Virus record (IMG/VR): IMGVR_UViG_3300014914_000003
Location: 62,001 to 126,000 of that record
Origin: a virus
Length of the DNA stretch: 64,000 nt
Strand: one strand, 5' to 3'
Both the position numbers and the translations under genes were made by a program. Positions within the stretch are counted from its first letter, which is position 1; the number at the start of each line of letters is the position of its first letter. The notes under the pieces are model-generated. The model worked only from the letters and a program-made list of their open reading frames with translations, was not told the origin of the DNA and did no database searches. This document shows positions 11,102-63,212 of the stretch, one piece after another.

Positions 11102-11120
11102 AATCTTTTCCTTCCTTCCT

Positions 11121-11131
11121 TTTTATACACC
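11121..11131 (-). promoter_or_regulatory. Class A promoter motif overlapping a stop codon
   Basis: Minus-strand GGTGTATAAAA. Its first G is the last base of the TAG stop of the gene ending at 11131 (TAGGTGTATAA). It stands before the gene starting at 11101. Confidence 0.55.
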
Positions 11132-12903
11132 TAAATCGCCATTTGGTACGACAAAGGTTCCATCCGAGTTCCCGTAGCGGTGAAACTAACCTCGATATTC
11201 GGCGAAACCAGATCGCCTGGAACACTGTCTGGATTGCCCAAAGGTCCACTTGAGTTTATGTAATACGATATAGACGGAGCCCACGAGTAAGGCCCCGGAC
11301 CAAGTACATTGAAAAGTGGTCCTGGTTCCATCCCAATTTTGTGACGATTTTGAATATACGCTCTCATGCGAATAGCAGTACAACCAACACCCAAAGTAAA
11401 CGTGTGTTCAAACGGCACCACCAAATCACTTTGGTCACAGGTGATAAAACCTACACCAGGAACTATCCCACCATTAATGGCGTTGTCCTCAAATGTCTCA
11501 TCTGTATAATCATTTTCCACGACTTGCCCCCCGCCCAACCAAACTCCATCCCACCCAAACTTGTTTTTCATAGACATGGCGACCCTGACCGTTTTCTTCA
11601 GAGACTGACTACATCCATACTGCAAGTCACGAACTTCAACTGGGTCGTGTGGCGGACACAGAAGAGGTGCATAATACCATGTTACACTTTCTCCATAATA
11701 ATAAGCTGTGGGGTCAGAGATTGGGCTTTTAACAGTCGCTTCTCCCGTAATGGTAACCTCACCCGGCTCTGGATTGTCTGGATCAACCGGTATGTCCGAC
11801 ACATTGATCACAAAATCCAAAATCATATATGAAGCATATGTGAAATCGCGACCAGTTTCAGGCCCAACATAGGTATAATACCCACCACCCGGTGGGTATA
11901 CCCCCACATAGCCCGTTCTGTCCGTCCAGTATTGGGCACCAATCATTTGTACTGGCATCACATTGATGACGGCATTCAATTCTGTTAACGACCGATACTC
12001 ATTCATCCCGTCTGCCCCGTTGTGATACTCATTCGATCCAGTGAGGGTCTTCAACGCCCTCTCCGGTGACAAGGATTTACACTCAACCCACATCTTTCCT
12101 TCGTTTGAACTGTCTACGGGGGAAGCAGGATCAAGGTTTTGGAACCAAAAGGATTCCCCACTATACCCATTGAAAGCTGCCGAATCCGTATCTGGAAGAT
12201 CAAAGGGCAATTCTGCTTTCGACTCCATAGCCGCCGCCGCATCGGACAACACTTCGGTGACGGCCCTGAGATACTGGGGCATACCGAAGTAAGAAAGAAC
12301 AGTCTTGTCACCAAATAAGTCGTTCAATTTTTCTTCATCAATTTCCGTAAACGCTGGATAATGCACTGGAACAGAAACAAACAAGGACGCGGGTCTGGGA
12401 TCAGGCTCCACATATCCATTCTGCAATATCTCAAAGCTGTTCGTCCAAGCCGCAGGAACCTCAGAAATGGATGGATAAATGTCATCTAACCCAAGTGTTG
12501 TTGCCCCTTCTTCTGTCGTGCTGATGATTGGAATCTGAATATTAACCAGAGGACTTATTTCTCCATCTATGTCCGAACCGGCATGAATCATCTGCCACAT
12601 AGCCAATCCATATGACATTCGACCGAAAGTATCCAAGAGTCCAAGAACATGACCAGGATTCGTGTAATCGATACCCGGAACACCAACGCCCAAACCGGTG
12701 TATGCTATATTTGGACCATAACAAGCGGGTGCTGGATTTACATACTGATATGGATTGAATCCGGGATACGTCAAGGTTGTCGGATTCGGATACAAAGGCC
12801 CTTGATAACCACCACACATTATACCCAAGTCGGGCTGAAAAGGAGTGTACCCATGCGCCGCAAGGCTCATTAGTTTGTTGTCACGAATATCGCCGATAGG
12901 CAT
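11131..12903 (-). CDS. Tail-tip or virion protein, unknown family
   Basis: 590 residues, GAGGAAGGG before the ATG. The N-terminal 100 residues are rich in G, Y, P and N (GGYQGPLYPNPTTLTYPGF), like a flexible or collagen-poor fibre segment. The middle contains mixed helices (LNDLFGDKTVLSYFGMPQYL). The C-terminal part is strand-rich and ends with an aliphatic beta domain. No family recognised. It lies in the run of tail genes after the tape measure, two genes before the 1179-residue appendage, so a baseplate or tail-tip role is likely. Confidence 0.45.
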   Translation of the reverse strand: MPIGDIRDNKLMSLAAHGYTPFQPDLGIMCGGYQGPLYPNPTTLTYPGFNPYQYVNPAPACYGPNIAYTGLGVGVPGIDYTNPGHVLGLLDTFGRMSYGLAMWQMIHAGSDIDGEISPLVNIQIPIISTTEEGATTLGLDDIYPSISEVPAAWTNSFEILQNGYVEPDPRPASLFVSVPVHYPAFTEIDEEKLNDLFGDKTVLSYFGMPQYLRAVTEVLSDAAAAMESKAELPFDLPDTDSAAFNGYSGESFWFQNLDPASPVDSSNEGKMWVECKSLSPERALKTLTGSNEYHNGADGMNEYRSLTELNAVINVMPVQMIGAQYWTDRTGYVGVYPPGGGYYTYVGPETGRDFTYASYMILDFVINVSDIPVDPDNPEPGEVTITGEATVKSPISDPTAYYYGESVTWYYAPLLCPPHDPVEVRDLQYGCSQSLKKTVRVAMSMKNKFGWDGVWLGGGQVVENDYTDETFEDNAINGGIVPGVGFITCDQSDLVVPFEHTFTLGVGCTAIRMRAYIQNRHKIGMEPGPLFNVLGPGPYSWAPSISYYINSSGPLGNPDSVPGDLVSPNIEVSFTATGTRMEPLSYQMAI

Positions 12904-12908
12904 TAGCC

Positions 12909-15302
12909 TTACCCTTCCTCAACCGGTGGTGTAAACACCTGCGGTGTCTGTTCCATGTAAGCAACATATGGTCCATGTTCACTCTTCGAAAAAATACTAA
13001 CCGTAACCCGTGTTCCAACTGGAATTAAGCCTGGACTAGTGTCTGTTTCGGCCAAGTTCCGCACACCGGTCCACTCGGACAAAAAGTATGAGTTCGTGAT
13101 ATTCAAACCACCAGCAAACGTTTGTGGATCGATGTCCGCATAGTTGAGTCGCCTGACAGCATAGAAGGGGCCACCTTCTTTGAAAGACACGACACCCAGA
13201 CCACCCTCTGGTTTTTGATATGTGTACTCCATATTTTCCTGGGATGGGCCAGTGAGGGCTTCTTCTTCAGTCTCCGGTGCCGACTCTGGCTCTGGTGGAG
13301 ATTCGAAATCATCCTTGTTCTCTGGGAAATCATCCTCTGGTTCTTTCTCGTCGTAGATATCATCCTTTTCTCTCTCTTCTTGTTTCTTGCGTTTGAACTC
13401 ACCGAGTTCCCGTGTGTAGAGATTCATCACATATCTGGTCATGACACCGTTAGTGTCAAATCGAATGAATATCTCTGTGACACTACCACCAAGACCAATA
13501 GATTGACCTATGTTGACCTGTGGCACATCTGCAACCTCTAATTGACCAGTATTGATGACAGACAATCCTGGTAATGTGTCGATTTTCTGAGCAGCCAATT
13601 CTGTCAACCCGGCCATGGCGGTGGGGTTCAACATGCCACGAACACCAAAGGTCCACGGCACCAAATCCTTGTCGACAGACACCTCTGAAGACCCGGGAGA
13701 TAGAACACGACTACGTACCATAGATGTATTGGACCACGGTCCGTAGTGGATACCACGATCCATGATTGGGGTCCATGCTTTCGACAGCGTCCCATGACGA
13801 GTGGTACGGCTTGAATCCACCTCTCCCGTGTCTGGGTCCATATAGTATCGAGTCAAAGCTACTGGCAAAACCATGATGACATAACGACCATATTGCTCCA
13901 ACGTACACTTCATGTACGATTCACTCTCGCGTGGTATAAGGTTATTCGAATTCTGAACAACGGGTGCCCATTCAACATAGTGTGGCACCATAGGCGACTC
14001 AACAGTCCCAGAACCAGTCAAGAAAAGCTCTGACAAATGGACAAACGGCCCCCAACGACCGTCTTCGGTAGTCAGCTTCAGTAGAACATCTGGATCGAAC
14101 TGTCGTGCACCCTGTGGCGGTGTGCTGCCTTCCCACCATCCGGCAGGAATGATTTCTGGATAGTTTGGCAAATCCTGCCCTGTATCCGACATTGTGTTCT
14201 TGTTCAGTGCAAAATAGAATCTCTTACCCCAGAAGTCATCTATATATCGCTTGAGTGCGGCGAGTTGATCAGCATCCATAGACCCATCACGACTACCGTT
14301 AAGAACAGCTTCCATCTCTTCGATAGTTGTATCAAGTCTGCGATATTGTGGTTCATCAGGCATTGTATACGACGGAGTAGCCAGTGGTTGCCCAGCCTCA
14401 TTGAACCCCCAAAATTGACTTATCTCAACGCCATGGACCTGATCCAGTTTTCGTTTCACGCCACCCCAGATCACCTTGTGGGTAGTGGTATCAGAATTCT
14501 CGTATCCGTCTTTACGGCGAATGACACGATCGCCATGTAGCGCAGCAAGTTCATCCATTTCCAATGCTGTGGGATTACCGATGCCATCCAGGCGTCGAAC
14601 AGTTTTGATCGTGATAACAACAGTATCATCAACAACACTCTTTCGCTGGGACTCTACCCACCACTCAGCGCCAACAGCATTGCAGAATTCTGTAATCGTT
14701 GACACCAAAGACCTAACTTCTCCCTCGATATAATATTGGCCAACACCTTCACCACGCCAGTTTTCAAGAGTTGCCAACTCACTCATATCGACTTCGAAAA
14801 CATCATTCCCATAGCTTAGAGTAGCGGCCTCTACACGTTCCATGATGGTACTAAACAAAACACCTTTGTTTTCTTCCCTACTAGACCCCTCAGAAGCTTC
14901 GGTATCACCTCTCGAACCAATGTATACAACATTGCTGTCAACCAAAGCAACCTCGGAATCGGGTTCGTCAATGTACACATTGGCGATATTGGCAGAATCG
15001 AGAACAGTACGACAATCGGTCAGCCTTACGACATAGATGCCGGTACCATTGGGGTCGGTAGTTGTTCTCTCCCAAGATTGTACGATACCAAGGATGCTTA
15101 GTTCACCAAATCCAACATACTGAGCAGAACGGACATCGTATTGATCCAGGGTAAAATTCTGATCATCTTCCTCGACAACAGTAACCGTAAACACGATGGG
15201 CTGGCTATTGAAACCCATCTGCGCAGTGATACTCTTGAATGAACAACCGAAGACCTTGGTTGTTCTCGCACCCCACGTATCGTCATAAATTACTACAGCC
15301 AT
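12909..15302 (-). CDS. Tail-tip / baseplate hub candidate
   Basis: 797 residues; start coupled to the previous stop (TAATG). The first 180 residues are strand-rich and open with IVFTVTVVEEDDQNFTLDQY and a SILGIVQSW motif, like the N-terminal domains of tail hub proteins (gp27/Tal class). A middle region repeats long beta segments. Residues near 660-710 are a highly acidic, proline-rich hinge (EKEPEDDFPENKDDFESPPE), which separates a last small domain of about 90 residues. The hinge may hold a mobile cap at the tail tip. Position after the tape measure supports this; the homology is by pattern only. Confidence 0.45.
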   Translation of the reverse strand: MAVVIYDDTWGARTTKVFGCSFKSITAQMGFNSQPIVFTVTVVEEDDQNFTLDQYDVRSAQYVGFGELSILGIVQSWERTTTDPNGTGIYVVRLTDCRTVLDSANIANVYIDEPDSEVALVDSNVVYIGSRGDTEASEGSSREENKGVLFSTIMERVEAATLSYGNDVFEVDMSELATLENWRGEGVGQYYIEGEVRSLVSTITEFCNAVGAEWWVESQRKSVVDDTVVITIKTVRRLDGIGNPTALEMDELAALHGDRVIRRKDGYENSDTTTHKVIWGGVKRKLDQVHGVEISQFWGFNEAGQPLATPSYTMPDEPQYRRLDTTIEEMEAVLNGSRDGSMDADQLAALKRYIDDFWGKRFYFALNKNTMSDTGQDLPNYPEIIPAGWWEGSTPPQGARQFDPDVLLKLTTEDGRWGPFVHLSELFLTGSGTVESPMVPHYVEWAPVVQNSNNLIPRESESYMKCTLEQYGRYVIMVLPVALTRYYMDPDTGEVDSSRTTRHGTLSKAWTPIMDRGIHYGPWSNTSMVRSRVLSPGSSEVSVDKDLVPWTFGVRGMLNPTAMAGLTELAAQKIDTLPGLSVINTGQLEVADVPQVNIGQSIGLGGSVTEIFIRFDTNGVMTRYVMNLYTRELGEFKRKKQEEREKDDIYDEKEPEDDFPENKDDFESPPEPESAPETEEEALTGPSQENMEYTYQKPEGGLGVVSFKEGGPFYAVRRLNYADIDPQTFAGGLNITNSYFLSEWTGVRNLAETDTSPGLIPVGTRVTVSIFSKSEHGPYVAYMEQTPQVFTPPVEEG

Positions 15303-17058: not shown

Positions 17059-17778
17059 TTAATACCCGTTGTCCACGAAACCAGGCGGTATTTTGTCTCT
17101 TTTGACAAATCTATTGCATCTTGGACACAATAATGACAAATTTTCTAAACCAAACAATGCTAACAATTCCGATTCGTTAGATGCCGAAGATGTCGGTACA
17201 ATATGATCGATATCATAACCGACATCGTCATAGTCACTTTTGCACATAGGGCATCTATTGTTTTGTTGTCGCCTTATGCCCTCCAGATGATCACACAGTT
17301 CTTCGCCGGAATACGGAAGATGTTTAGTGAAACCTTTTTGTCCGTTGAGACGATGATGCAATGCACTCCTTAGTCTGTTTTGATATATATAAATTGGTTT
17401 CTGCAACCTATTTCTTTGTGTGTTTCTCCTTTTTTCTTTTGAAGACGAACGCGACGACCATTTTCGAAACTGTTCGGATTCGCACTTATTGCATCTCAAT
17501 CTACCCAACCCACATCTTGTTCTGTGAGAGTGTGTCGTGTTGCCGTGTCTCGGGCAAATTGCAATTATCTTGTTATTCCCAATTTTTGAAACGATCAATC
17601 TTTTTTGTCCACCCTGCACTCCATAAGCTTTTAAGCCTAGTTGCTTAGCCCTGCTAATAATAGCAGTGTAGGTACGATCGAGTTTGTCGCAGCAGCCTTT
17701 GTAACCACCATTCGGATAAGCATTTTTCAATATTTCAATTTCAATGTTTGTCCATTTAGGGTATTTTTTGCTATTCAT
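17059..17778 (-). CDS. HNH homing endonuclease with SANT/Myb-like N-terminus
   Basis: 239 residues from the ATG at 17778; the ATG at 17790 is also possible. Residues 5-38 (KWTNIEIEILKNAYPNGGYK ... CCDKLDRTYTAI) form a SANT/GcrA-type helical DNA-binding unit, followed by RAKQLGL. A C-x2-C pair (RCNKC) sits mid-protein. The C-terminal nuclease is the CPMCKSDYDDVGYDIDHIVP zinc-HNH core, with a second cysteine pair (CPRC) in LENLSLLCPRCN and the catalytic His in the DIDHI motif. It is the same family as the genes at 46102 and 63202. It is embedded between tail genes, its start lies inside the end of the fibre gene, and it has its own class A promoter. Confidence 0.85.
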   Translation of the reverse strand: MNSKKYPKWTNIEIEILKNAYPNGGYKGCCDKLDRTYTAIISRAKQLGLKAYGVQGGQKRLIVSKIGNNKIIAICPRHGNTTHSHRTRCGLGRLRCNKCESEQFRKWSSRSSSKEKRRNTQRNRLQKPIYIYQNRLRSALHHRLNGQKGFTKHLPYSGEELCDHLEGIRRQQNNRCPMCKSDYDDVGYDIDHIVPTSSASNESELLALFGLENLSLLCPRCNRFVKRDKIPPGFVDNGY

Positions 17779-17779
17779 T

Positions 17780-20700
17780 TTAATATCCATGCGAATACAG
17801 GTTCCCGCTGGTATTATACACAAGGGTACCAGCATCTAGGAACAGGTGGAGCCCACTAGGGCCGTTATTGAACATTCCAGAGACACCCATCAAGTAAAGT
17901 GGTAATGTATCCGTCTCTTGTTCAAAGAGTCCTTCTACAAACAGATTGCCAGACGCAGCAAGTACAATTGGGACTGCACCAGACATGTACAGCGTTGCGG
18001 TTCCGAACCAACCCGGATCACATCTCAAGAACAGGCTCCATGGATCGTCATGGGAATCGTGTGGTTGGAATCCAATTCGAGTTGGGTCATCTGGGTTGAC
18101 GCTGCAAATCAGACCAACAGAGCCAGTGATCTCAATGCCGTCCGGTGGTTGACCCGGAGCGTGACCACGGATGTACAGGCTGCAAGTTTTTGGTACAGTG
18201 AAATCAGCCTTCAAGAACATCGTCCAAGCTTCGTCGCTTGTCAGATTGCCCTCTTGCGCCTTCATGAACAGGGTCCATGCTTCTGTCCCGCCTGCCGTGT
18301 ATGGGTAATCCGCGTCGGCAGCTTCGAGATACAGTTTCACATTATTAAACGCCCGATTGATGCCAGATGAGCCGGATGGTAGTGTAAAGCCATTGATGAA
18401 CAGATCGAGAGATTCGGTTTTGTCGTTGTCGTCAGTTTTCAGGTATAGAGTCCAGCCACCCCATTGTCTTCCTGTGCCGATGAACAACGGACATGTACCG
18501 CTAGCTTGGTCATATCCATACGTATACAAGGTTGGGCTTGGATCGCCATATGGGTATGTAAAGTCGTCTGGGTCACCTGGATACGAGAAGCTACCACTTG
18601 AACAGATGAACTCTGGTCCCTTAATGAATAGGTCGCAATTCCCGCTACTGCCATTATGCCCGAGGATGTATAACGGTGGGCTAATACCATGTCCTGCACC
18701 ACCACCAACACTAGTGAAAACACCAGCCATCGTGTATAGGTCTACGCCGCTTGAATGTGGCTGCGGACCAACGATAAACAAGGTGCCAGATTCGCCAATT
18801 TCTTCGTGACCATCACCTATTCTGAGTAGCATACCAGATGGATAATTACCGCTGGTATCAACATGTCTGTGTCCCTGTATGTAGAAATCTACGTCATCAG
18901 CTACTGGACCAAAGATAACCAACGGACAGGTGTCCTCGTATTGGAGTGGTCCTCGCGTATACAATGGTGGACCATATTCAATTCCCGCCATCGATTCGAT
19001 GGCAGCAGCACCATCAGCCGCAAAGATGAAGTCTGTCAACTCGGGTGTTCTAGGTGATGTGCCGATGTAGGCACTAGTGAATGATTCCTGTGTACGGAGA
19101 TACAGGTTGGCCGTCCCACTATTTTGTAATGGCCCCTGCATGTAAAGGTTGCACCCACGGCTTGCTAAGCCACCGGTCAATCCACTTGTTGTGCCAGCAG
19201 TATCACCTGTGGTCTCGATAACAAAGATACCGCTACCAGTTGAACCACCAAAGAAGACTCCACTACCAGTAAACGAAAAATCGTCAACACGAGGTACGCC
19301 GTGATAGTGAACCGGGAATAGATCGTAACTGTAGATACCAGTTGGGGTTGGTGAACGTCTCTGGTTAATTTCTGGATGATTGTCATGGTTGACCCATCTG
19401 ATCGAGGCACCATAGGAATTAAGGTTGACTTCGTCGTTGTATGGCTGCAGCACGCCACTCTGTGGATCGTGGAATATTTGTTCCCCACCATTTGGCCTAG
19501 GACCTTGGCTATGGTATGTTGTACTGGTGAACGGCTGGATGTTACCAATATAAAATCCAGACGGTGGTGTTTCTTCGAGCAAGTAGGCAGATGCATCTGC
19601 CCCGTAGGCACCTAAGCCAACTTCTATAGTGACACGAAGCCCTGAGCAAATCTCGCCCGGATTGTAGCCGACCCCTGGAATTGTTGGATCATATGCGAAT
19701 GCCCCCACTGTTCGCTGGATATATGTTGACGGTGGAACTATGGTTGGTCGGTACTCATCTAGTGGTCTATTATATGTATCAACGATACTGTATAGGTCTC
19801 TCAACTCGTCTGTTGTAAAGCGACCGGCGTCGGTCCATAACACATTCTCGGCTAAGATTATGCTACCCTGTTTGACACCACCCATTTCAGCAGGTATGAT
19901 GCCACCAGTGATATTAACGCCCTGCTGTCTTACACCAACACAGTTTTCGGCTCTCCTGTTTGTTGGGTCGCTGTAGCTATATAGAGAACTAGCGGGTGGG
20001 CCAGTCAGACCAGAGCCAACATAAGTCCATGGCTGGCCGTCAAGACTTAGGTAGACCTTCATGTGGTTTGGATGGCTACCATCTATCCCACTGGCTATGA
20101 AGTCAGCATGTAAGGCAACAAAGACAATAGGATCATGGTCAATATATGTTGTCGGCCACTCTTCCTCCCAAGTTCTGTACAATCCTGTTACTTCTGTATT
20201 CCATTCCCAAGTGGAACCGCTCGGGGTGCCATAATGGGTAGTACCTCCCCACCACAGACCGCCGCCGCTTGGCTGCTCATATGGTACGTCACGAACATTC
20301 GTGATAACAGTGATGCCACTTTCACTCTCAATACGAATACCAAGCGTATGTGAAGCAAGAGCAATGTCTAAATCTTCGGGAAGACTCTTGCGGAACCAGC
20401 CGACCTCAGCTACGTTTCCGGAAGTGTGGGCGCCAGACATCCAAAAGACTGTGGTAAAACTGCCCGAACCAGCATATCCATAGTTTTCTGTCTCACCACA
20501 GATATTCTGCTTATATCGTTCTGATTCGTAATATCCCATCTTTGTTGATTGCCAACCACCACCGGGAGTACGATAGTCTGTATCCATCGCTTCGCGGTAA
20601 TTATATCCACCCAAATCGTCATAGTGTGGATATGTTCCATCGCCGGGTGTTGGAACAAAAGGTTCGGCCAGAATCGAGTCAGCTACATGGGCGACTGTTT

Positions 20701-23700
20701 TACCGGATGTACCGATAAAGGGAGTGTGCTGGAACAAGGGGGCTGGAACGTACCACGCTTGATCTTGCACAAATTCCGTAATGTCTCCAGCAGCACCCTG
20801 TCCATCGTGATAGTATTTGAGATAGAATACAGCGTTGGGCTCTCGGATAAGACCCGGACCTGGATCAACCGGATTGTAGACAAAGAGATTGAGTGACGCA
20901 GTTTGTGGCTCTATAGCCTTCAGGAACAGATCGCCCGACGAAACATGAGGGGCAATGCCGTGGGCGAATAGGTCTCCAGATGTTTTGATTGATTCGTATC
21001 CGCGAATGAAGAGATCGTGCCGATCATTGTGGGGGATAATCCCAGAGCCTTGCGAATAGAGTTGAACACCAGATGGATAATTTGGGCAGTCATCAACATT
21101 GGTGGCGTAGCCGAAAACACCATGAGTGAACAGGTTGCCGGACACCTGATGTATGTCGAGGCCATGTGTGAACAAGTCTGCATTGGCAGTTTGTATTCCG
21201 TAGATATGTAGAGAGACACCAGATGGATATTGATTATTCGAATTAAACGATTGATGACCACATGTGACCAGATCGCCAGATGTGGTGTAGGGTGCTACCC
21301 CGCCAACATATAGATTGCTACTACCTGCTAGGTCGAGCGGCGTATCGATGAAGTTATCCCAGTAGCCGAATAGTGTGAAATTATCTCGATCACCTGTAGC
21401 GTCTTCTGAATATACTTCAATGTCAGAATTTGCGTTGACCTGCATGTCGGTCACGACATATCGCGTTGAAAGCGGGGCAGCGCTAACACCTATCTTTCGT
21501 TCCAGTTTAACTGCTTTAGATCGCACGCCGACAACACGACTGTCTTCGTTTTCGTTTGTTATTATTCCGATCGACGCAACAGCACCGGATGGTACGCCAC
21601 TGAGACTGACAGATTCCCAGGTACTATCAACAGTAGGATTGGCCTCATTTTGTTGATAAAGATCGGTATAATCTCCAGGCGGCTTCTTCCAATACCCAAC
21701 AACAACGGTTGGCTGCCAAGTGTTAGTAAATTCATGATATTTTTGTATTGTAGCATTGGCTCCGCTCGTTTGGAGCATGGATGTCCAGAAAGAATATCGT
21801 TCGGAAGCGTGGTCACCCCCAATCCACTTAAATTTCCGATCGGCAGGGTTCCCCACTGATCGAACACCTTGAAGCTGATTGCCATAGCTTTGGCCCTCCA
21901 AAACTTCGACAATAGCGCCACTTGGTACCCCAGCAGAATCAAGGTCTAGACTGTTCCATGTCGATGTCGGATCGGCTGGGAGTATTGTTGCTGCTAGTTC
22001 TTGATATTCAGCACCAACCCAATATCCCATCAGGTAGAAATTGACACCACTGGGAGCATAACACTCTATCTTTGTTCCAGACAACTGTACGTGCATAGTA
22101 GCTGCATTGTAACCACCATATGTTGGCTCAGCGGGTGCAATACTAACTCTCCTGTCTAATAATGAACCAGCGGTCCTTACGCCTACTAGCGTATCTGCGT
22201 TGACTTCTCCACTGTTGCAGATCATGATTTCGGCTGTTATGTCGGAAACGTCTGGCACCCAGGATGCCAAGTCTTGTGTTTCCCAGGTATCTTTTGATAA
22301 TGGTGTCCAAGTTCTAAAGTCTTCGATGTAATGGCACACTGTTAACTGATCGAACACTTTCGTGTACAGATTCATGCTATTCGAACAGGGCTCTCGCACT
22401 TTGATAAACAGATTACCATTGTCGGCGTACTGTTCTGGTCCGCTGATAAACAACGGCGAAGATGGCCCACCATCTTCGTGTGAAATACCTGGATACATAC
22501 CGCTGATACCACTTGTGCCGACTAGATGTGGCCCACTAAGGAACATACTGCCGGACGATAAACAAGATTCCGGGACTTGCAGGAACATGTTGCCATTTCC
22601 TTCAAATCTCCTTGGACCCATCGTGAATAAGGGACACTTGGCGACCGGAATTCCGTCGATGTACATTTGGAGACCGCTGGGATAATCTGCTTCTTCTAAT
22701 ACGTTGGGTGTCTTGTGACCATGGGTAAACAATCCAACAGTGCCGTTGTCTCGCAATGGAATTCTGGAGAGGTTGTCCCAGTATCCTATGAGTCTATATG
22801 CATATGTGCTCGACGAATTGTCTTGGTAAAATTCCGCATATGTCCCACTAGTCATGTTGACATGAACACGCATCATGCTGGCTGCGGTATCAGCCGCCAC
22901 ATTGATGTCACGTTGTTCCAGATATTTGTCATCATAGCTGGAATAAACTTCTCTGATCCCCATGTCAAGGTGGCTATTCGATCTGTTTTCTAGAACGATT
23001 TCACATACTGAACCTTCTGCCACGCCGACATCTAGTGGTTCCCATTGATCGCTCACCGTGCTAGGACCAACATCGGAGAAAGCTTCGTGATATGTCCCAG
23101 GCGAGAAATCCCAGTAACCAACAACAGTGAATTCTATGTCGTCGGCAATTTCGGCATAAAGCTGAATAGTTCCGTCCGTTCCGCTCGCCCGCACTTGCAT
23201 TGTAACATAATCTTTGCCGCCAGTATCCGACACTTTGTCAAACACATGATGACGATCGAGATTTGAACCCACTTGTCGAACGCCGCCACTCAGAGGTATC
23301 TGTGCGGTGGTGTCAGTATTTGCTACAACAACATCAACAATCTTGTTTGCGTATTGAGTACCTAAGTCATAACTTTCCCAACCCGCATCTCCGGTCGCGC
23401 TAATAATATCATTGGCTTCTACATAAGTAGCACCACACCAGAAACCGGCCACCTGAAATTTGTTGTAGTCATCATTATCTGCGTACACTTCAATATTGCC
23501 ACTGTCGTCAACGGGGACAAACAGGCTGAGGTGATCATTGCTATAGCCAACAGCTTCGTGTAGGCTAAATCTACGATCCAACGAAGACCCAACAGACCTG
23601 GCACCAACAAGGTAGGAAACCGTACCTCGCGAGTTCAATAAAACCAATTCGACGACAACTGGATCGATGTCATTGGTTAATGGAACACCATAATCGTTTA

Positions 23701-24874
23701 CGTTGAAAGTATTCCAAGTGTCGGCGGGTGTCGTTTCGATGTATGTCGTACTTAATTCTGTGTAATGAACATGCTGATTACGACCTTCGATAAAGCATGT
23801 TGCTGTTTGCACAGCAATGCCCGTGCAGCCAACAAAGTTGTCCCAGTATCCAAGGAGGCTGAAATAGGGTGTTTCGCTAACGTCTTCATAGAAAAACTCG
23901 ATATCTGCTGACGCATTGATCGAAGCACACATGCGACAGGTATCAAAGCCCGTTGCTCCTGCATCTATTTCGTGCAACTCCAGGGCTCGACCAAGAGTTG
24001 AACCACTTTCTCTGACACCAACCCAATTCTCATCACTTGCGCAACCATTGCCCAAGGCGAATTCACCAACTGAGTTGGCTGGTATGCCAGATTCATTCAG
24101 AGATTTGCCGTACCATGTCCCCAAGGCTGGGCCATCTTCGCCACCATTGCCATCTGGAGCACCAATATCAATAAGCCGTTCGTGATACTCTCCTGGCGGT
24201 GAAGACCAATAACCAACCAGATAGAACTCGACACTGGGCACATCTTCAGCATAGACCTGAATAGCGGCAGTATCTCCGCTGGCAACAACCGACATAGTGA
24301 TGCCATCTACGCCACCGGCTTCGGCTTCGTGAATATCAATGTGACGATCCAGCAATGATCCGCTTGTTCTAATACCGATGTCCCGACTTAGGCCATTATC
24401 AGTATTGACACCAACAACTTCGGCTACCTGTCCACCACTGACGCCATATCCAGTCAGTGATTTGTTATCCCATGTCTCGTTTGTGTCAGCGACAAAAGTC
24501 TCGAACAACTCTGTGTATTCAACACCGAGCCAATATCCCAAAATATGGAACTGGATATTTGGATCATCAGCGGAGCCATTTGATTCGCTAAAAAATTCGA
24601 CCTTACCATGAGCGTCAACCTGCGTGCATAGTCCAATGCCATCTACGCCACCGGCTTCTGCTTCATGTATATCGATTATCCGATCAACCGCTGATCCAGA
24701 TTTACGAACTCCAGCCCTGTGCTCGGCGACAGAGTCACAATTTATCAAAGCAATTTCGACGACAGAATTGGGAGGAACACCCAAAGAGACTAGGCTTTTG
24801 CTAACCCAAGTACCTTCTTCGTCGCCTATCAACGACAATGTATGGTATGTTTCCTCATAATGTCGATAAATCAT
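17780..24874 (-). CDS. Giant modular fibre protein with repeated domains
   Basis: 2364 residues. Residues 1-1176 hold nine domains of about 105-115 residues, each ending in [GF]YW or FW and carrying a GVR-x-x-GS-x-x-DR core. They form a three-domain unit present three times (about 1-348, 370-704, 846-1176). Unit ends are recognisable: first domain YWLGVEY / FWCGATY / YWVGAEY; second PPGEY / SPGTY / PPGDY; third GYWDNF / GYWDNL / GYWDNF. Residues 705-845, 1180-1335 and about 1905-2364 are series of the short SGDLFxxG repeat. Residues about 1345-1690 are LamG-like. It lies next to the tape measure and should be a side or tail fibre that binds host surface sugars. No signal or chaperone domain was seen. 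Confidence 0.6.
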   Translation of the reverse strand: MIYRHYEETYHTLSLIGDEEGTWVSKSLVSLGVPPNSVVEIALINCDSVAEHRAGVRKSGSAVDRIIDIHEAEAGGVDGIGLCTQVDAHGKVEFFSESNGSADDPNIQFHILGYWLGVEYTELFETFVADTNETWDNKSLTGYGVSGGQVAEVVGVNTDNGLSRDIGIRTSGSLLDRHIDIHEAEAGGVDGITMSVVASGDTAAIQVYAEDVPSVEFYLVGYWSSPPGEYHERLIDIGAPDGNGGEDGPALGTWYGKSLNESGIPANSVGEFALGNGCASDENWVGVRESGSTLGRALELHEIDAGATGFDTCRMCASINASADIEFFYEDVSETPYFSLLGYWDNFVGCTGIAVQTATCFIEGRNQHVHYTELSTTYIETTPADTWNTFNVNDYGVPLTNDIDPVVVELVLLNSRGTVSYLVGARSVGSSLDRRFSLHEAVGYSNDHLSLFVPVDDSGNIEVYADNDDYNKFQVAGFWCGATYVEANDIISATGDAGWESYDLGTQYANKIVDVVVANTDTTAQIPLSGGVRQVGSNLDRHHVFDKVSDTGGKDYVTMQVRASGTDGTIQLYAEIADDIEFTVVGYWDFSPGTYHEAFSDVGPSTVSDQWEPLDVGVAEGSVCEIVLENRSNSHLDMGIREVYSSYDDKYLEQRDINVAADTAASMMRVHVNMTSGTYAEFYQDNSSSTYAYRLIGYWDNLSRIPLRDNGTVGLFTHGHKTPNVLEEADYPSGLQMYIDGIPVAKCPLFTMGPRRFEGNGNMFLQVPESCLSSGSMFLSGPHLVGTSGISGMYPGISHEDGGPSSPLFISGPEQYADNGNLFIKVREPCSNSMNLYTKVFDQLTVCHYIEDFRTWTPLSKDTWETQDLASWVPDVSDITAEIMICNSGEVNADTLVGVRTAGSLLDRRVSIAPAEPTYGGYNAATMHVQLSGTKIECYAPSGVNFYLMGYWVGAEYQELAATILPADPTSTWNSLDLDSAGVPSGAIVEVLEGQSYGNQLQGVRSVGNPADRKFKWIGGDHASERYSFWTSMLQTSGANATIQKYHEFTNTWQPTVVVGYWKKPPGDYTDLYQQNEANPTVDSTWESVSLSGVPSGAVASIGIITNENEDSRVVGVRSKAVKLERKIGVSAAPLSTRYVVTDMQVNANSDIEVYSEDATGDRDNFTLFGYWDNFIDTPLDLAGSSNLYVGGVAPYTTSGDLVTCGHQSFNSNNQYPSGVSLHIYGIQTANADLFTHGLDIHQVSGNLFTHGVFGYATNVDDCPNYPSGVQLYSQGSGIIPHNDRHDLFIRGYESIKTSGDLFAHGIAPHVSSGDLFLKAIEPQTASLNLFVYNPVDPGPGLIREPNAVFYLKYYHDGQGAAGDITEFVQDQAWYVPAPLFQHTPFIGTSGKTVAHVADSILAEPFVPTPGDGTYPHYDDLGGYNYREAMDTDYRTPGGGWQSTKMGYYESERYKQNICGETENYGYAGSGSFTTVFWMSGAHTSGNVAEVGWFRKSLPEDLDIALASHTLGIRIESESGITVITNVRDVPYEQPSGGGLWWGGTTHYGTPSGSTWEWNTEVTGLYRTWEEEWPTTYIDHDPIVFVALHADFIASGIDGSHPNHMKVYLSLDGQPWTYVGSGLTGPPASSLYSYSDPTNRRAENCVGVRQQGVNITGGIIPAEMGGVKQGSIILAENVLWTDAGRFTTDELRDLYSIVDTYNRPLDEYRPTIVPPSTYIQRTVGAFAYDPTIPGVGYNPGEICSGLRVTIEVGLGAYGADASAYLLEETPPSGFYIGNIQPFTSTTYHSQGPRPNGGEQIFHDPQSGVLQPYNDEVNLNSYGASIRWVNHDNHPEINQRRSPTPTGIYSYDLFPVHYHGVPRVDDFSFTGSGVFFGGSTGSGIFVIETTGDTAGTTSGLTGGLASRGCNLYMQGPLQNSGTANLYLRTQESFTSAYIGTSPRTPELTDFIFAADGAAAIESMAGIEYGPPLYTRGPLQYEDTCPLVIFGPVADDVDFYIQGHRHVDTSGNYPSGMLLRIGDGHEEIGESGTLFIVGPQPHSSGVDLYTMAGVFTSVGGGAGHGISPPLYILGHNGSSGNCDLFIKGPEFICSSGSFSYPGDPDDFTYPYGDPSPTLYTYGYDQASGTCPLFIGTGRQWGGWTLYLKTDDNDKTESLDLFINGFTLPSGSSGINRAFNNVKLYLEAADADYPYTAGGTEAWTLFMKAQEGNLTSDEAWTMFLKADFTVPKTCSLYIRGHAPGQPPDGIEITGSVGLICSVNPDDPTRIGFQPHDSHDDPWSLFLRCDPGWFGTATLYMSGAVPIVLAASGNLFVEGLFEQETDTLPLYLMGVSGMFNNGPSGLHLFLDAGTLVYNTSGNLYSHGY
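17783..19162 (-). repeat. C-terminal block of short LFxxG/LYxxG fibre repeats
   Basis: About residues 1905-2364. Repeats of roughly 15-25 residues centre on a C/S/T-[DNA]-L-[FY]-[IVTM]-x-G unit (for example CNLYMQG, GTLFIVG, CDLFIKG, CSLYIRG). The same unit occurs at 20870-21337 and 22340-22762 of this gene and in the genes at 49274 and 51113. Confidence 0.65.
17811..17823 (-). promoter_or_regulatory. Class A-like promoter inside the end of the fibre gene
   Basis: Minus-strand TTGTGTATAATAC, 33 bases upstream of the HNH start at 17778. It is also translated as part of the last residues of the fibre (LVYNT). It would give the endonuclease its own transcript. Confidence 0.45.
21347..22339 (-). 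repeat. Fibre super-repeat, copy 3 (three domains)
   Basis: Residues 846-1176. The domains end in YWVGAEY, GYWKKPPGDY and GYWDNFID. A block of LFxxG repeats (22340-22762) separates it from copy 2. Confidence 0.7.
22763..23767 (-). repeat. Fibre super-repeat, copy 2 (three domains)
   Basis: Residues 370-704. The three domains end in FWCGATY, GYWDFSPGTY and GYWDNLSR, in the same order as copy 1. A short GRNQHVH linker with one FIEG element separates the copies. Confidence 0.7.
23831..24874 (-). repeat. Fibre super-repeat, copy 1 (three domains)
   Basis: Residues 1-348 of the fibre. Three successive domains end in GYWLGVEY, GYWSSPPGEY and GYWDNFVG. Each carries an EAEAGG- or EIDAG-type loop and a GSxxDR or GRALEL core. 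Confidence 0.7.
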
Positions 24875-24884
24875 ATCTTACCGC

Positions 24885-27800
24885 CTAAGTTAACGCACTC
24901 TCAAAAGCGTTCGCCGCTTCTGAGCTACCAGCCGAACGAGCCAAATGCTGAAGAACAGCATTGATTTCGGCTTTAGCCACCCTTGTTGCAACAGCTTCGA
25001 AATCCGCTGTGAATTCTTTCGCCGCTGCTCCAACGCCGGAAACATCCACTTTGATATCGCTCATAGTCTCGATGTCAATACCAATGCCCTCTTCCATCGC
25101 TCCCGCGACCCTGGCCATCCCCTCATTAAGATTGCCCATGCTCTCCTGAGATTTGTCTATGACTTCGTTGTTTGCAGCAATCGCCTCAGTATTGTCGTCC
25201 AACCCCAGAACTTCCAGTGGCTTCTTTTGTCCAGACGCAGCACGATCAGCTTCCTGTTGCGTCTGAGCTTCAATAGCCATAGCCACCGAATCAACTCTAT
25301 CACCCAGGGCATTTACCGCCTCTGTGGTTTGCGAAATAGCCTCACGAGCACCCTCCCCGCCAGCGCCGCCAGCAGCAGCCTCTTGTTGTCCAGCCAACGC
25401 CTCTCTCTGTGCGTCAGCGATAGCCTGCATCTGCCCGACAGATTCGTTCATACCCTGACTCGCCACGACCATGTCGGTTCCACCAGTACGCATATCTGTT
25501 GAAGCCGTCCGCATCTCTTCTGTGGATCGTGTTGTCGCGTCAGCAGCCATACGTGTCTCAGAAGCAGCCTGTTGGATATCTGCCGCCGATGCAGAAATAT
25601 CTTCAAAGGCACGAGGTGCAGCCTCTTGTTCCCCCATCGGTTGCTGTGCGGCAGGGGTCAGACTGCGCAGATAATCCTGCATTGCTGGCGTTAACTGTGG
25701 CACGAGTTCCTCTGGTTGACGAGCCACCTCTGGGCGTTCGATCATTGACTGAAGACTATTGCTAAGATCATTCAGACTGCGGTTCAAAGCACCAATATGC
25801 TCGACCTCTCTGATCCCAGGCTCTTGCGCCTGTGACCTTAGTGACTCAGCAGCAGCCTTGGCTACCTCTGCAGGGTCTAGTCCGCTGTCTTGGATCATCT
25901 TGGGAATATCGTAGATGAATCCTTTGAACTCACGGAAGCTCTCTGCCAATTCGATATTGGCTGAAGCCTGATCTTGTTGACCACGATTCAGTTGACCGAG
26001 CACCTTGCTTTCAGCAGTTGAAGCAGCCGCCTGGAGCATTGTCTCCATGACCCTACCCATGTCGCCACCGAACAAGGCTGATTGTAGATTCCTCTGATCC
26101 ATCGTTCTCTGCTGTTCTGTCCGACGAGCTTCTGGAACATGTCGCCTCTCCGTGTAAACCCGACCCTCTGGCGTAACCTTAGTGTCAAGCGCACCAGCAC
26201 CTCGCTCCAAATCTTGTTTGGTGAGAGATGAGGTAAACGCCTTGACCGCAGAAGCACTTTCTCTCAAGGCTTGTGCAAAGATGTCAGCAGGCTCTTCGAA
26301 AGCTTGAGCCACGTCGATCGCAGCTTGAGCCTCGATAAATTGTCGCTGCCGACTGATCAATTCACTCATTTGCTTACTACTACTTGCCAGATTCTCTGCT
26401 GCCTGAGCGGCCCATTCCTCATTGAAGTCATAGCCCAATCCACGTCGCTCTTCCTGTTGCTCAGATAAAGCCTGCGGTGCCATTTGTGCCATCTTCGCCA
26501 ACTGCGCCAAAGCCACCTGCAAGTTCAAGACCTCAGTAGCAGAATCAATAGCTGCTTGTTGCAGACCCCGGCTTGCACCCTCACCGGTTTTCTGTGCTTC
26601 TGCAACCTTACGGTTCAGTTCAGCGTGCCTATTGTAACTCTCTTCATACTGCTTCAAGACTTCTCCGACGACATCTCCATTCTGTGCCAGATCAATCATC
26701 ACGTCATTCGCATCCACAAACCCCATAGCGAATCCTGGTGGGAACTGGATATCCAAACCAGCTAACTGCATGGCATTCTGGAAACTGCGGATAATGGTGT
26801 CACCCAACTCTGATGTACCAACATCTACCCCAGCCAAAAGCTCTTCGCCAGCCAGTGCTAGATTCAACTGTTGTGCCTGGGCATCCATCCAAGTCTTGAA
26901 AGTATCAATGGCCGCTTCGTAGAATGGTTGTTGTTTCCCAAGCACATCCTGGAACGCCTTCTGGATCGATTCTGAATCCATCACCACACCAGCCTGATCA
27001 ACCAACATACCCTTCAGTTGTCCACCAAGATTTGCAGCAGCAGCCCTAAATGCCGCTTCGGCTTCAGGTGGAATTTGTTCTGGATATTCCTCTATGAACT
27101 TGTCGATGTAATCCTCCAGGACATCAAACGGGTCAACCTGTGGATCACCAAGCAGTGATCTTAGTGAATCAGCATTGGCCTTGCTTTTGATCATAGACTT
27201 CATAAACTCTTCGAGAGCGGTCCCGACCCGAGCCATGTCTGTCGTAAACCCTTTTAGTTCTTCAAACTGACTCAGATCAAGGAAGTCACCCATTTTCCCT
27301 GTTCTGGCAATTTCTTCAACAGCCTCTCTTGTGTACTCGCCTCCAGGCTTAGCAACACTAACATCTTGTCCAACCAACTGGCTCAGCTTGTCAAATGTCT
27401 CAACGTTGGTTTGAATCGATCTTGCCGCATTTCCAACAGCATCACTCAACAGACCAAGCTCATGACTGAGTTGCACTGGTACATGCAATCGCTCAAAGTC
27501 ACTAGAAGCCTTTTCGATAGCGTTGGCCAACTTGGTTACCTTGACATCCATCTGAACCTGATCGATACTCGCTGCGATTTTCTCAAGTCCACCAAGTTGA
27601 GTGATCATAGCCTGACGAACACGGGCTGCGGCTTCCGCATTACCACCAAAAGCTTCTGTCAATATCTGGTCGAAACCAGCTTCCAAACCACCGGCACCAA
27701 ACTCTTCAACGGCACGTTGAAGAATCTCATTAAGCAATTCTGGATTCTTGCCAACGATCGTCTCTAGTATCTCCTGGGCCTCGGTATCGCCAACGGTTAC

Positions 27801-29942
27801 TAAACCTTCACCCTTAAACAAATTAGCCACACGAGGACCAATATTGGCAAAAACGTCATACCAGTCGCCCTCCCATTTACTCGCTGCGTCTTGAATACCT
27901 TCGATAGCAGTGGTGCCAATATTAGCAACTTCTTCACCTAATTGTTCTGGTGTATCGAGTTTGATATCTTCGACCTTGATGTCCCCGATTTTGCCTGCGG
28001 CCTCTTCGATAGCTTTTTGCATATCAATATCGGCAGCTTTATAAGCAGCATAACTCATCGCACCAAGTGCTAAGGTAATACCTGCTACAGCACCACCAAA
28101 TGGACCCAATGCCGCAAAAGCGCCAACTATACTTTTGCCCGATAGAACAGAAATAGCGACAGCCATGATACCAGCAGCCTTTGCTGTTTCGGCAGCAAAA
28201 ACTCCAGCAGAATTACCAGCCTCTTCCGCAGCTTCAGAGAAATGATCAGCAGCCAAAGCAACACCAGCAGCCACAGCCATCTGTGCCAGTGGCGAAGCAG
28301 CAGCACCTCTAAGTCCACCTGCAAGCCTACCTCCAACTCCACCAGCAGCAGCAGCACCTCCAGCCCCTAAACCGACACCACCAGCCAAACGTCTCTGCAC
28401 TCGTTCTCTGGCAGTAGCACCAGCTACGCCACCAGCACCGCCACCAGTCATCGCACCCATAACAGCGGGTATGCCACCACCAACGCTAACTGTACTCATG
28501 TAAGCCAAAGCCTTAGCGGTAGCACCAATTGAGACGGCAAGCAACTTGAATCCAGCAGCAAAACCGATGATTGTTGTGAGTGCTGGGATAACTGGTTTGA
28601 TGAAATCGAGGAACGAGACGAACGCCTTGCCAGCGGTTGTCACACCACGAATGACCGGAACGAACAGTGGCTCAGCAAGTGTTTGTACCAGCTTGTTGAA
28701 TTCCTGTACCAGAATATTCAGTTGTGCCTGGAGACCTTCTAGTCCCTGCTCAGCAATCTTTCCGAATTTCCCACTGGAGGCACCGGCAGTTCTCAGGGCG
28801 TCATCTAGGACATCGATGTTGCTGATCAAAGCAAGCAAACGAGAAATCTGTCGTCTACCACCAAGCTTGGTGCCGATTTCAATTCTATCTTGGATACTCG
28901 CAGTATCTCTAAGGGCGGCGGCAATGCGCTTGATGGCCTCAACAGGATTCCCGGCTTCGATTGCTTCAGATATACGAATACCCTTCCCCTCCAGGAAGCC
29001 TACGATCTTAGGATCGGCCAAACGAGAAGAAATGGTCTTCATAAAGGTGCCGACAGTCTCGGCACTTTCTCTTGTGGCTTGTCGAACCGTTGTAAACACA
29101 GATGCGAATTCTTTGAATGTTCCACCAATAGCTTCGAACGCAGCACCACCACGAGCAACACCCTTGGCAATATCTTCCGAAGATGCAGCGAACTTGTTAG
29201 ACAACGCTGTCATAACATCCAACACATCGGCTGTTGTCAAACCCTCAGTGTTAAATTGCTTTAGAGCGGCAATGGTACCTTCAATGGCGGCATCCATTGT
29301 TTCAAATGACGGTGTCAATGGAACCTTAGATAGTGCAGTCAGCGATTCTGTTAACTCGTCACCACGAAAACCAGCCTGAGACAACACCTTCCCAATACGA
29401 GCAATCTCACTTGCGGATGTACCAGTCGATGTAGCCAGACCAAGGATTGTATCTCGCATCCCACCCATCTGCTGTTCTGTCTGGCCAGTGATCTGCCGCA
29501 TCTTCAGCATCGCGGTGTCGAATTCAACTACCGCTGCGGTGGCCTTCGTGATACCACCAAGTGCAGCAAACGGAACAACAGTAGCAGCCAAGAACGCAGC
29601 ATATCGTTTACCAGCTATCTTTACCGATTCCCCAAAGCTGTCAGCCTTTGCTGCGGCAGCAGTCATGCCTGCGGCAGCTTTTTGTGTCGCACCGGCAGTC
29701 TTGCCCTGAGACGAAACGAGTTTGTTATTCGCCACAGTTACCTTGTCTGTTGCAGCAGCGAGTGTAGTAGCGGCGGCAGCTTGTGCCTTGACACCAGCGG
29801 CAATTCCACCCGCACCACCAGCGGCAGCGCCACCAGCGGCACCGGTAGTAACGGTACCCTGCATTTTAGACAGAGCAGCCTCGACCTTTTGCAGGCCGAG
29901 AATGTCCTGAATTCTAAGATTAACGTCAAGTACAAATGCCAC
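24885..29942 (-). CDS. Tail tape measure protein
   Basis: 1685 residues, with a GTG start after AGGAG. Residues about 140-330 are the TP901-type tape-measure core: FDTAMLKMRQITGQTEQQMG, then TSTGTSASEIARIGKVLSQA and a long helical region with EFASVFTTVRQATRESAETV. Hydrophobic spans near residues 460-490 and 560-680 fit membrane insertion during DNA entry. The C-terminal 500 residues are alanine/glutamine-rich coiled coil with IQQAASETRMAADATTRSTE-type heptads. At about 0.15 nm per residue the tail would be near 250 nm. The gene is preceded by two candidate chaperone genes and followed by tail-tip and fibre genes, the standard order. Confidence 0.9.
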   Translation of the reverse strand: MAFVLDVNLRIQDILGLQKVEAALSKMQGTVTTGAAGGAAAGGAGGIAAGVKAQAAAATTLAAATDKVTVANNKLVSSQGKTAGATQKAAAGMTAAAAKADSFGESVKIAGKRYAAFLAATVVPFAALGGITKATAAVVEFDTAMLKMRQITGQTEQQMGGMRDTILGLATSTGTSASEIARIGKVLSQAGFRGDELTESLTALSKVPLTPSFETMDAAIEGTIAALKQFNTEGLTTADVLDVMTALSNKFAASSEDIAKGVARGGAAFEAIGGTFKEFASVFTTVRQATRESAETVGTFMKTISSRLADPKIVGFLEGKGIRISEAIEAGNPVEAIKRIAAALRDTASIQDRIEIGTKLGGRRQISRLLALISNIDVLDDALRTAGASSGKFGKIAEQGLEGLQAQLNILVQEFNKLVQTLAEPLFVPVIRGVTTAGKAFVSFLDFIKPVIPALTTIIGFAAGFKLLAVSIGATAKALAYMSTVSVGGGIPAVMGAMTGGGAGGVAGATARERVQRRLAGGVGLGAGGAAAAGGVGGRLAGGLRGAAASPLAQMAVAAGVALAADHFSEAAEEAGNSAGVFAAETAKAAGIMAVAISVLSGKSIVGAFAALGPFGGAVAGITLALGAMSYAAYKAADIDMQKAIEEAAGKIGDIKVEDIKLDTPEQLGEEVANIGTTAIEGIQDAASKWEGDWYDVFANIGPRVANLFKGEGLVTVGDTEAQEILETIVGKNPELLNEILQRAVEEFGAGGLEAGFDQILTEAFGGNAEAAARVRQAMITQLGGLEKIAASIDQVQMDVKVTKLANAIEKASSDFERLHVPVQLSHELGLLSDAVGNAARSIQTNVETFDKLSQLVGQDVSVAKPGGEYTREAVEEIARTGKMGDFLDLSQFEELKGFTTDMARVGTALEEFMKSMIKSKANADSLRSLLGDPQVDPFDVLEDYIDKFIEEYPEQIPPEAEAAFRAAAANLGGQLKGMLVDQAGVVMDSESIQKAFQDVLGKQQPFYEAAIDTFKTWMDAQAQQLNLALAGEELLAGVDVGTSELGDTIIRSFQNAMQLAGLDIQFPPGFAMGFVDANDVMIDLAQNGDVVGEVLKQYEESYNRHAELNRKVAEAQKTGEGASRGLQQAAIDSATEVLNLQVALAQLAKMAQMAPQALSEQQEERRGLGYDFNEEWAAQAAENLASSSKQMSELISRQRQFIEAQAAIDVAQAFEEPADIFAQALRESASAVKAFTSSLTKQDLERGAGALDTKVTPEGRVYTERRHVPEARRTEQQRTMDQRNLQSALFGGDMGRVMETMLQAAASTAESKVLGQLNRGQQDQASANIELAESFREFKGFIYDIPKMIQDSGLDPAEVAKAAAESLRSQAQEPGIREVEHIGALNRSLNDLSNSLQSMIERPEVARQPEELVPQLTPAMQDYLRSLTPAAQQPMGEQEAAPRAFEDISASAADIQQAASETRMAADATTRSTEEMRTASTDMRTGGTDMVVASQGMNESVGQMQAIADAQREALAGQQEAAAGGAGGEGAREAISQTTEAVNALGDRVDSVAMAIEAQTQQEADRAASGQKKPLEVLGLDDNTEAIAANNEVIDKSQESMGNLNEGMARVAGAMEEGIGIDIETMSDIKVDVSGVGAAAKEFTADFEAVATRVAKAEINAVLQHLARSAGSSEAANAFESALT

Positions 29943-33083: not shown

Positions 33084-34133
33084 TCAGCCCTCGATCACAT
33101 TCTTGTGAGGACGAATCCGCTTCATGACATACGCATCCAGCCACCCATATTGTCCGTCCAGCATAGCAAACATTGCTGGTTGATGGAACATCTTCTGTGC
33201 TCGCTGCGCGAAAGCCGCCCGGTCTGGTTGATCCCCTATCCGACCAAACTGCTCTTGGACCTCAGACAAAACATCCTGATACTGTTGAGATAAAGCAGCA
33301 GCAATAGCATCTAGGACGCAATGGTAATCGACATCCACAATACTCCACACCTCTTCGGGCACCCTCCCGTCAACCATCGTATTCCAAATCGCCAACGGCG
33401 TCAGGTTCATCAACAGGTCGCTGCGTCGGAAGTAATCCTCCGACTTGATCTTGACCCGTAGGCCATTATCGAATCGGATGACAAAACCTTCAAGCTCAGC
33501 CCCAGAAACCGTCTTGATCTGCCCCCGACAGTACCTCAGCCATTCCTTGTCATACGACTCGGCAAGTGTGAAACCGAACTCCCGACTCCACTCTTCGACC
33601 TGTCCCCAGTCATACTCTTCGCCTGTATGGCGGTTGTAAGCCGCCAGGAGCACTAGGTCTTCCAGGTCACCGTAGTCTACGACGATACGGGTCGCAGGAC
33701 AGATAAGTTCAAACACCAAGGTCACCTCATCGGGTAGCCCAGTCAGATCGTACCTCTTCAGGAACTCTGTAGCCCAGACGGCACCCGTGCTCTTGAATGA
33801 CCCTCTTGTGGCAATCCGATGCTGCCCCTCATGACGATAAAGGATACCAAGCCACCCGTCGTATTTCTTGAAGATACGGAATCCATCATGCCAGGGAAGC
33901 GCCCACTCCTGGGTGTCTCTTCGCTGGTTCATGTTGAAGAACTTAGGAAATGGCCGTGCCACTACCTTTCCTGTCTTGCGATCGAAGATGATCCCCCGGC
34001 TATTCAGCGTGAGATCATTCCAAGTCTTACACCAGTTGGTGTAGCTGTAGATGCGCATATCGCCCAGATCGTCGCACCGAAGCAATCGCTCAGCTACAAG
34101 CTTGTTTCGATCTTCTATGAAATCATACTTCAT
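33084..34133 (-). CDS. T4 RNA ligase 1-like protein
   Basis: 349 residues. The nucleotidyltransferase motifs appear in order: motif I KKYDGWLG with the adenylated lysine at residue 90, TRGSF (109-113), motif III FELICP (141-146), motif IV EGFVIRF (215-221) and motif V VKIK (227-230). The N-terminal PFPKFFN segment (61-67) is typical of the Rnl1 group. The remaining C-terminal 110 residues are helical. It joins 5'-phosphate and 3'-hydroxyl RNA ends using ATP. In T4 the enzyme reseals tRNAs cut by host anticodon nucleases, and here it lies near a tRNA cluster. It overlaps the radical SAM gene by four bases. Confidence 0.88.
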   Translation of the reverse strand: MKYDFIEDRNKLVAERLLRCDDLGDMRIYSYTNWCKTWNDLTLNSRGIIFDRKTGKVVARPFPKFFNMNQRRDTQEWALPWHDGFRIFKKYDGWLGILYRHEGQHRIATRGSFKSTGAVWATEFLKRYDLTGLPDEVTLVFELICPATRIVVDYGDLEDLVLLAAYNRHTGEEYDWGQVEEWSREFGFTLAESYDKEWLRYCRGQIKTVSGAELEGFVIRFDNGLRVKIKSEDYFRRSDLLMNLTPLAIWNTMVDGRVPEEVWSIVDVDYHCVLDAIAAALSQQYQDVLSEVQEQFGRIGDQPDRAAFAQRAQKMFHQPAMFAMLDGQYGWLDAYVMKRIRPHKNVIEG

Positions 34134-63200: not shown

Positions 63201-63212
63201 CTTATACACAAC
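63201..63212 (-). promoter_or_regulatory. Class A-like promoter overlapping the HNH stop
   Basis: Minus-strand GTTGTGTATAAG, about 20 bases before the head operon. TGT GTA TAA inside it is the end of the HNH gene at 63202. Confidence 0.5.

Follow-up and report, generated by a model that had tools for sequence, protein, structure and literature searches.

Tandem domains are common in the tail proteins of phages, where the arrays are mostly described as growing by one domain at a time. Here we describe a tail fibre gene encoding 2364 aa, with a differently organised domain array, located in a stretch of 64 000 nt (the window; positions 62 001 to 126 000) of the 160 kb IMG/VR record IMGVR_UViG_3300014914_000003, from an uncultivated bacterial virus. 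The closest documented analogue that we found is the array of BACON tandem repeats in a tail-associated protein of crAssphage (de Jonge et al. 2019, PMC6949934), which grew by single-domain duplications and in which all domains that occupy one position cluster into a single clade across phages. Both are tandem arrays of homologous beta domains within a tail-associated protein of a phage, but the duplicated unit of the fibre appears to be a whole block of three differentiated domains, i.e. A, B and C, and none of 33 such domains matched the Pfam BACON family.

Other described systems are more distant. The predicted structures of the tail fibre-like proteins of the Synechococcus phage S-CAM1 (M4QS96) and the Prochlorococcus phage P-SSM2 (Q58M40) align with ~242 columns of the block, equivalent to roughly two domains out of three [template modelling score (TMq) 0.34, root mean square deviation (rmsd) 6.6–6.7], but with an identity of only 13–14 %, such that homology is not established; a profile of the domain found no copy in the genomes of P-SSM2 and S-CAM1. 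The cyanophage Pam3 protein gp24 forms a trimeric TNF-like fibre head (PMC9608196) and resembles the block in principle only, i.e. in bringing three beta-sandwich domains together at the working end of the fibre. There, these are identical subunits of three chains, while here three different domains belong to one chain, and no structural match to gp24 was seen among the fold matches. For the N-terminal lectin of BC2L-C and for carbohydrate-binding modules (CBMs) of the CBM4/6/22 families, the likeness is at the level of the single-domain fold (TMq 0.33–0.42), but there is no sequence match.

The explanation that we favour, at a probability of about 0.68, is a heterotypic A-B-C module that arose by tripling and differentiation of one domain, was later duplicated, lost or replaced whole, and probably binds surfaces. 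An ancestral beta-sandwich domain would have been tripled, the copies A, B and C would then have become different, and short class-specific linkers would join them into one rigid body. Since the tripling, phages would have copied, lost or exchanged this complete body in one piece, which would have led to block types I, II and III and to one to three blocks per phage. The blocks would be the variable and exposed part of the fibre and would probably bind glycans or surfaces, while the shaft and remainder that carry them are conserved; by adding or exchanging a block, a phage may alter the avidity of its binding to the host surface, or its specificity. Of this, the order, completeness, classes and copy-number variation of the blocks are demonstrated by sequence comparison.

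The three-domain block in the window and in related phages

Residues 1–1173 of the fibre contain nine homologous domains of 106–120 residues each with G[YF]W ends, sharing in the alignment the landmarks YxE, TW, G[VIA]R, GSxLDR and a terminal GYW. The parts of the gene are as follows, the domains being delimited by domain comparison and by class and domain profiles unless stated otherwise:

17780–24874, minus strand: fibre gene, 2364 aa; open reading frame (ORF) with homologues at the same place beside a 50–71 % identical tape measure protein
24527–24874, minus strand: block 1 (type I), domain A
24203–24523, minus strand: block 1, domain B; class and domain profiles, predicted structure with a predicted local distance difference test score (pLDDT) of 97.4
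23840–24199, minus strand: block 1, domain C
23780–23839, minus strand: spacer of 20 residues separating block 1 from block 2; in the relatives L006 and L009, it measures a similar 22 and 23 residues
23435–23779, minus strand: block 2 (type II), domain A
23108–23431, minus strand: block 2, domain B
22775–23104, minus strand: block 2, domain C
22340–22774, minus strand: stretch of 145 residues that separates block 2 from block 3 and contains SGxLFxxG repeats of the shaft type
22016–22339, minus strand: block 3 (type III), domain A
21686–22012, minus strand: block 3, domain B
21356–21682, minus strand: block 3, domain C; domain and class profiles, A-B-C of this block predicted together [pLDDT 88.5, predicted template modelling score (pTM) 0.90]
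17783–21355, minus strand: conserved fibre remainder, in which shaft repeats with a period of 14–15 residues flank a stretch of ~550 conserved residues that lacks them

The initial annotation had read nine homologous domains of about 110 residues as three A-B-C sets, told apart by their end motifs. The alignment and the profiles of the relatives bear this out, and the three motifs are real and turn out to be linkers, i.e. GYW-x-G-x-x-Y from A to B, GYW-x-x-[PS]PGxY from B to C and GYWDN at the end of C, which recur in constant order in nine related phages. The array is discontinuous, with gaps of 20 (blocks 1–2) and 145 residues (blocks 2–3), and is therefore better described as three blocks on a fibre than as nine domains in a row.

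The nine relatives were obtained by scans of IMG/VR with the fibre, the tape measure protein and the tail protein encoded at 12909–15302. The domain profile counted nine copies in the window record, six each in L002, L006 and L009, and three each in L003 and L007, with no copy outside the fibre gene in these six phage records; four phages found later via other tail genes had 6, 6, 3 and 6 copies. All 18 blocks of the ten phages (one, two or three per phage) were complete and in A-B-C order, and every domain count was a multiple of three, for which the chance is ~2 in 100 000 if counts were free, bearing in mind that the phages are related and the counts not independent.

The most direct evidence for the duplication of a whole block comes from the sequence of L002, in which one gene carries two blocks of the same type (A-A 44 %, B-B 37 % and C-C 31 % identical), separated by 379 residues. 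With this pair, the 18 complete sets, the counts in multiples of three and the domain classes that hold without linkers (see below), it is well supported that gain and loss affect A-B-C blocks as a whole instead of single domains, in agreement with the initial annotation. As to its further suggestion of a trimeric or threefold binding array, the reading in which three blocks make up the threefold was rejected, since some phages carry only one block or two; a threefold, if any, would lie within one block (A+B+C).

Between the two A-B-C blocks of L002 lies a YWTD (LDL-receptor class B) beta-propeller (10985–12121; Pfam PF00058, E=5e-10), and a similar-looking stretch, read by eye, is found downstream of the single block of L021. 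The two-block fibre ORF of L024 (5121–7763) is only 880 residues long, without the conserved C-terminal part, and is possibly broken or split. No relative was found among bacterial and archaeal genome contigs, and tblastn searches of 50 697 phage records returned nothing for the block region, the C-terminal half or the blocks of two relatives. Alignments of distant domains offered no segment that was sufficiently conserved for use in scans.

Domain classes and the order of events

Linker columns were removed before the class profiles were trained and tested. Trained without the tested phage, the profiles assigned 31 of 33 domains correctly; trained on the 33 domains, they were correct for 21 of 21 in the four later phages (p ~1e-10 under random labels), all of which showed the A-B-C order and the same kinds of linkers. 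Even when trained without the tested block type, they named 46 of the 54 domains correctly, including 18/18 A and 17/18 C domains. That nine freely duplicated domains were misread as a pattern, for which the non-significant class signal of the window alone would speak, is refuted by the held-out 21/21 together with the multiple-of-three counts in ten phages, and has next to no chance of being right.

Within the window, the class signal is weak, with a mean identity of 30.5 % for the same class and 28.5 % for different classes, and in block 1 the neighbours A1-B1 (41 %) and A1-C1 (39 %) are more alike than A1-A2 (31 %) and A1-A3 (32 %). A tree of the nine window domains rejected neither grouping by class [approximately unbiased (AU) test, p 0.09] nor grouping by block (p 0.16), and was discarded as a test because it decides nothing. 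The clustering of A with A, B with B and C with C, as expected by the initial annotation, is thus undecided for the nine domains of the window and solid once the relatives are included. Neighbours closer to each other than A to A, which it had regarded as contrary evidence, occur in block 1 by raw identity and are not the pattern of the family.

Block 1 also contains a local match between two of its domains:

24636–24697, minus strand: patch of 62 nt in A1, 81 % identical to 24300–24361 in B1
24300–24361, minus strand: partner patch in B1, matching the patch in A1

This patch likely reflects local gene conversion, judging from the sequence. Without its 17 residues, the A1-B1 identity falls from 38 to 27 %, while that of A1-C1 stays at 38 %; therefore, the A1-B1 excess is due to the patch, which does not explain that of A1-C1. 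When compared with itself by BLASTP, the fibre matched only over its full length, which is uninformative, as internal matches were probably culled.

The tree of the 18 blocks distinguishes type I, found N-terminally in nine phages, type II, found as the second block, and type III, which comprises block 3 of the window and both L002 blocks; the second block of L009 is weakly placed. The domain tree rejected grouping by single blocks (p ~1e-46). Under the LG+G4+F model, constraining the 54 domains to class clades cost 1.9 log-likelihood units (p 0.28), and constraining them to block-type clades cost 36.8 units (AU p 0.006). For the first 33 domains, a mixture-model tree likewise clustered by class, with 5 changes versus 16 for shuffled labels. 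On these comparisons, it is most likely that A, B and C diverged first and that the blocks multiplied later, which is less certain than the block being the unit.

Alternatively, A, B and C may have arisen separately in each block type and be alike through equal positional constraints. The block-type constraint is not formally rejected when the long-branched L009 is left out (cost 17.3, p 0.083) or with 33 domains (p 0.06), and the identity within a class is far higher within a block type (37.5 %) than across types (27.2 %). However, such independent triplications are improbable in view of the rejection with all domains, the matching linkers in all block types and the success of profiles trained without the type in question.

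Predicted structure and fold comparisons

Structures were predicted by AlphaFold2 for a single domain with the 33-domain alignment and for block 3 with 11 aligned blocks, the latter a check that the initial annotation had proposed. The single domain (pLDDT 97.4) has eight strands and almost no helix, and the same eight-strand order is found in A, B and C of block 3 (pLDDT 88.5, pTM 0.90). The domain is predicted to be an eight-stranded beta-sandwich and the A-B-C block to be one rigid body; a pTM of 0.90 over three domains with joints of a few residues means that the predictor fixes their relative placement firmly.

Foldseek matches of the single domain were at fold level only. They comprised viral jelly rolls, with the satellite tobacco mosaic virus coat protein as the best, though still weak, PDB match (TMq 0.5–0.6, rmsd ~5), as well as the BC2L-C lectin, lambda J, the KHP40 cement protein and CBM4/6/22. 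A search of predicted viral proteins placed a protein of an uncultured caudovirus (TMq 0.45) and the tail fibre-like proteins of two cyanophages (TMq 0.34) among the best matches. The whole block yielded only domain-level beta-sandwich matches in the PDB, and their rmsd was very high; insecticidal proteins and glycosidases are named among these, which we ascribe to coincidence of fold and do not read as function. No solved structure with the arrangement of the block was found (TM at most ~0.3). By sequence, the 33 domains gave only scattered single-member matches in Pfam-A and PHROGs (E≥0.005) and no Pfam CBM match, the CBM fold similarity being weak, and the PDB gave no match either (best E of the profile search 0.58).

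A sharper form of the favoured explanation, which we consider less likely than not, places A, B and C around a pseudo-threefold axis within the block, as a pseudo-trimer of a single chain. The packing would be like that of a homotrimeric lectin or a TNF-like fibre tip, in which a single jelly-roll domain is present in three copies. The closure of a ring needing all three domains would explain why they are gained and lost only as whole sets (18/18 blocks), and the rigid predicted block is consistent with it. The BC2L-C lectin domain is a trimer, and appears among the fold-level matches together with the KHP40 cement protein, titled trimeric. Moreover, TNF-like domains build the trimeric fibre head of Pam3 gp24 (PMC9608196). 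However, a straight rigid rod would yield the same pTM, the A-B and B-C linkers are unequal in length, the fold matches are weak (TMq 0.4–0.6) with non-trimeric modules among them, and the search of solved structures gave no counterpart of the arrangement. It is tempting to speculate, if doubtful, that each block is a three-chain head fused into one chain, the copies of which became specialised, with one to three asymmetric heads strung along the fibre. If this were true, specificity would evolve through adding or swapping whole asymmetric heads.

Genomic setting and putative role in host recognition

By its location, the fibre gene belongs to the tail module, beside the genes of the tape measure protein and other tail proteins. 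It is the first gene after, and directly downstream of, the tape measure protein (24885–29942; PhageMin_Tail and PHROG tape-measure matches), an order also found in the relatives. No contractile-sheath family was found in seven of the phage records. The fibre itself matched 0 families of Pfam-A and PHROGs at E≤0.001, and the conserved, repeat-free region of ~550 residues had no Pfam match. The SGxLFIxG repeats, with a period of 14–15 residues in 17783–21355 and 22340–22774 (minus strand), resemble the shaft of beta-fibres.

Directly after the fibre gene, an HNH endonuclease ORF (17059–17835, minus strand; Pfam HNH, E=1.9e-5; PHROG endonuclease VII) shares 56 nt with the 3′ end of the fibre gene. 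In L003, an equally long ORF lies at this position beside the fibre (10498–11274), and none is found there in L002, L006, L007 and L009; the ORF looks like a free-standing homing endonuclease. Together with two further ORFs (46102–46791 and 63202–63945, both minus strand), it has phrog_1035, endonuclease VII-like HNH, as best PHROG, and this shared match suggests an HNH endonuclease family spreading in this genome. Another ORF (33084–34133, minus strand) strongly matches the RNA ligase/tail fibre attachment catalyst family (phrog_562, E=4e-51).

Across pairs of phages, type I blocks are 28–52 % identical, compared to 50–94 % for the tape measure proteins and 39–80 % for the fibre remainder (45–80 % among relatives with a full-length remainder), making the blocks, by sequence, the least conserved and fastest-diverging part of the fibre. 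L003 and L006, which have one and two blocks, respectively, share 94 % identity in the tape measure protein, 60 % in the fibre remainder and 35 % in the type I block, a contrast that suggests recombination at the fibre gene. Since host-recognition regions typically change in copy number, diverge fast and take up modules, these data suggest that the blocks may function in host recognition.

The blocks could instead be a rigid spacer rod that lengthens the fibre, with the copy number setting the reach and the C-terminal part binding. Their N-terminal location, the short conserved linkers, the rigid prediction and the shaft repeats elsewhere in the protein fit this idea, which is nevertheless rather unlikely: with a host reader at the C-terminus, the remainder would be expected to vary more than the type I blocks, and the reverse is seen.

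Several points weigh against the favoured explanation, i.e. a module that multiplied whole and probably binds surfaces. In many fibres, the N-terminus is the virion-attached end, and the blocks are N-terminal; Pfam, PHROGs and PDB sequences gave no match to a characterised protein that would directly back a binding role. As to the order of events, of the eight errors made by profiles from which the tested block type had been left out, seven were B domains, mostly called A, i.e. the separation of A and B is imperfect, and without L009 the divergence of classes before types is only favoured. In addition, the raised A-C identity in block 1 is beyond the reach of the patch, and selection acting on equivalent interfaces, instead of descent, could in part account for residues being alike at matching positions.

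The domain family described here is missing from Pfam and PHROGs. In this fibre, the varying unit is a differentiated triplet that is intact in ten phages, i.e. the tandem beta domains have an unusual level of organisation. Under the favoured explanation, it would represent a clear case of a rigid heterotypic unit that first formed and then multiplied in an attachment protein, and it comes with a testable idea of why the three domains stay together.
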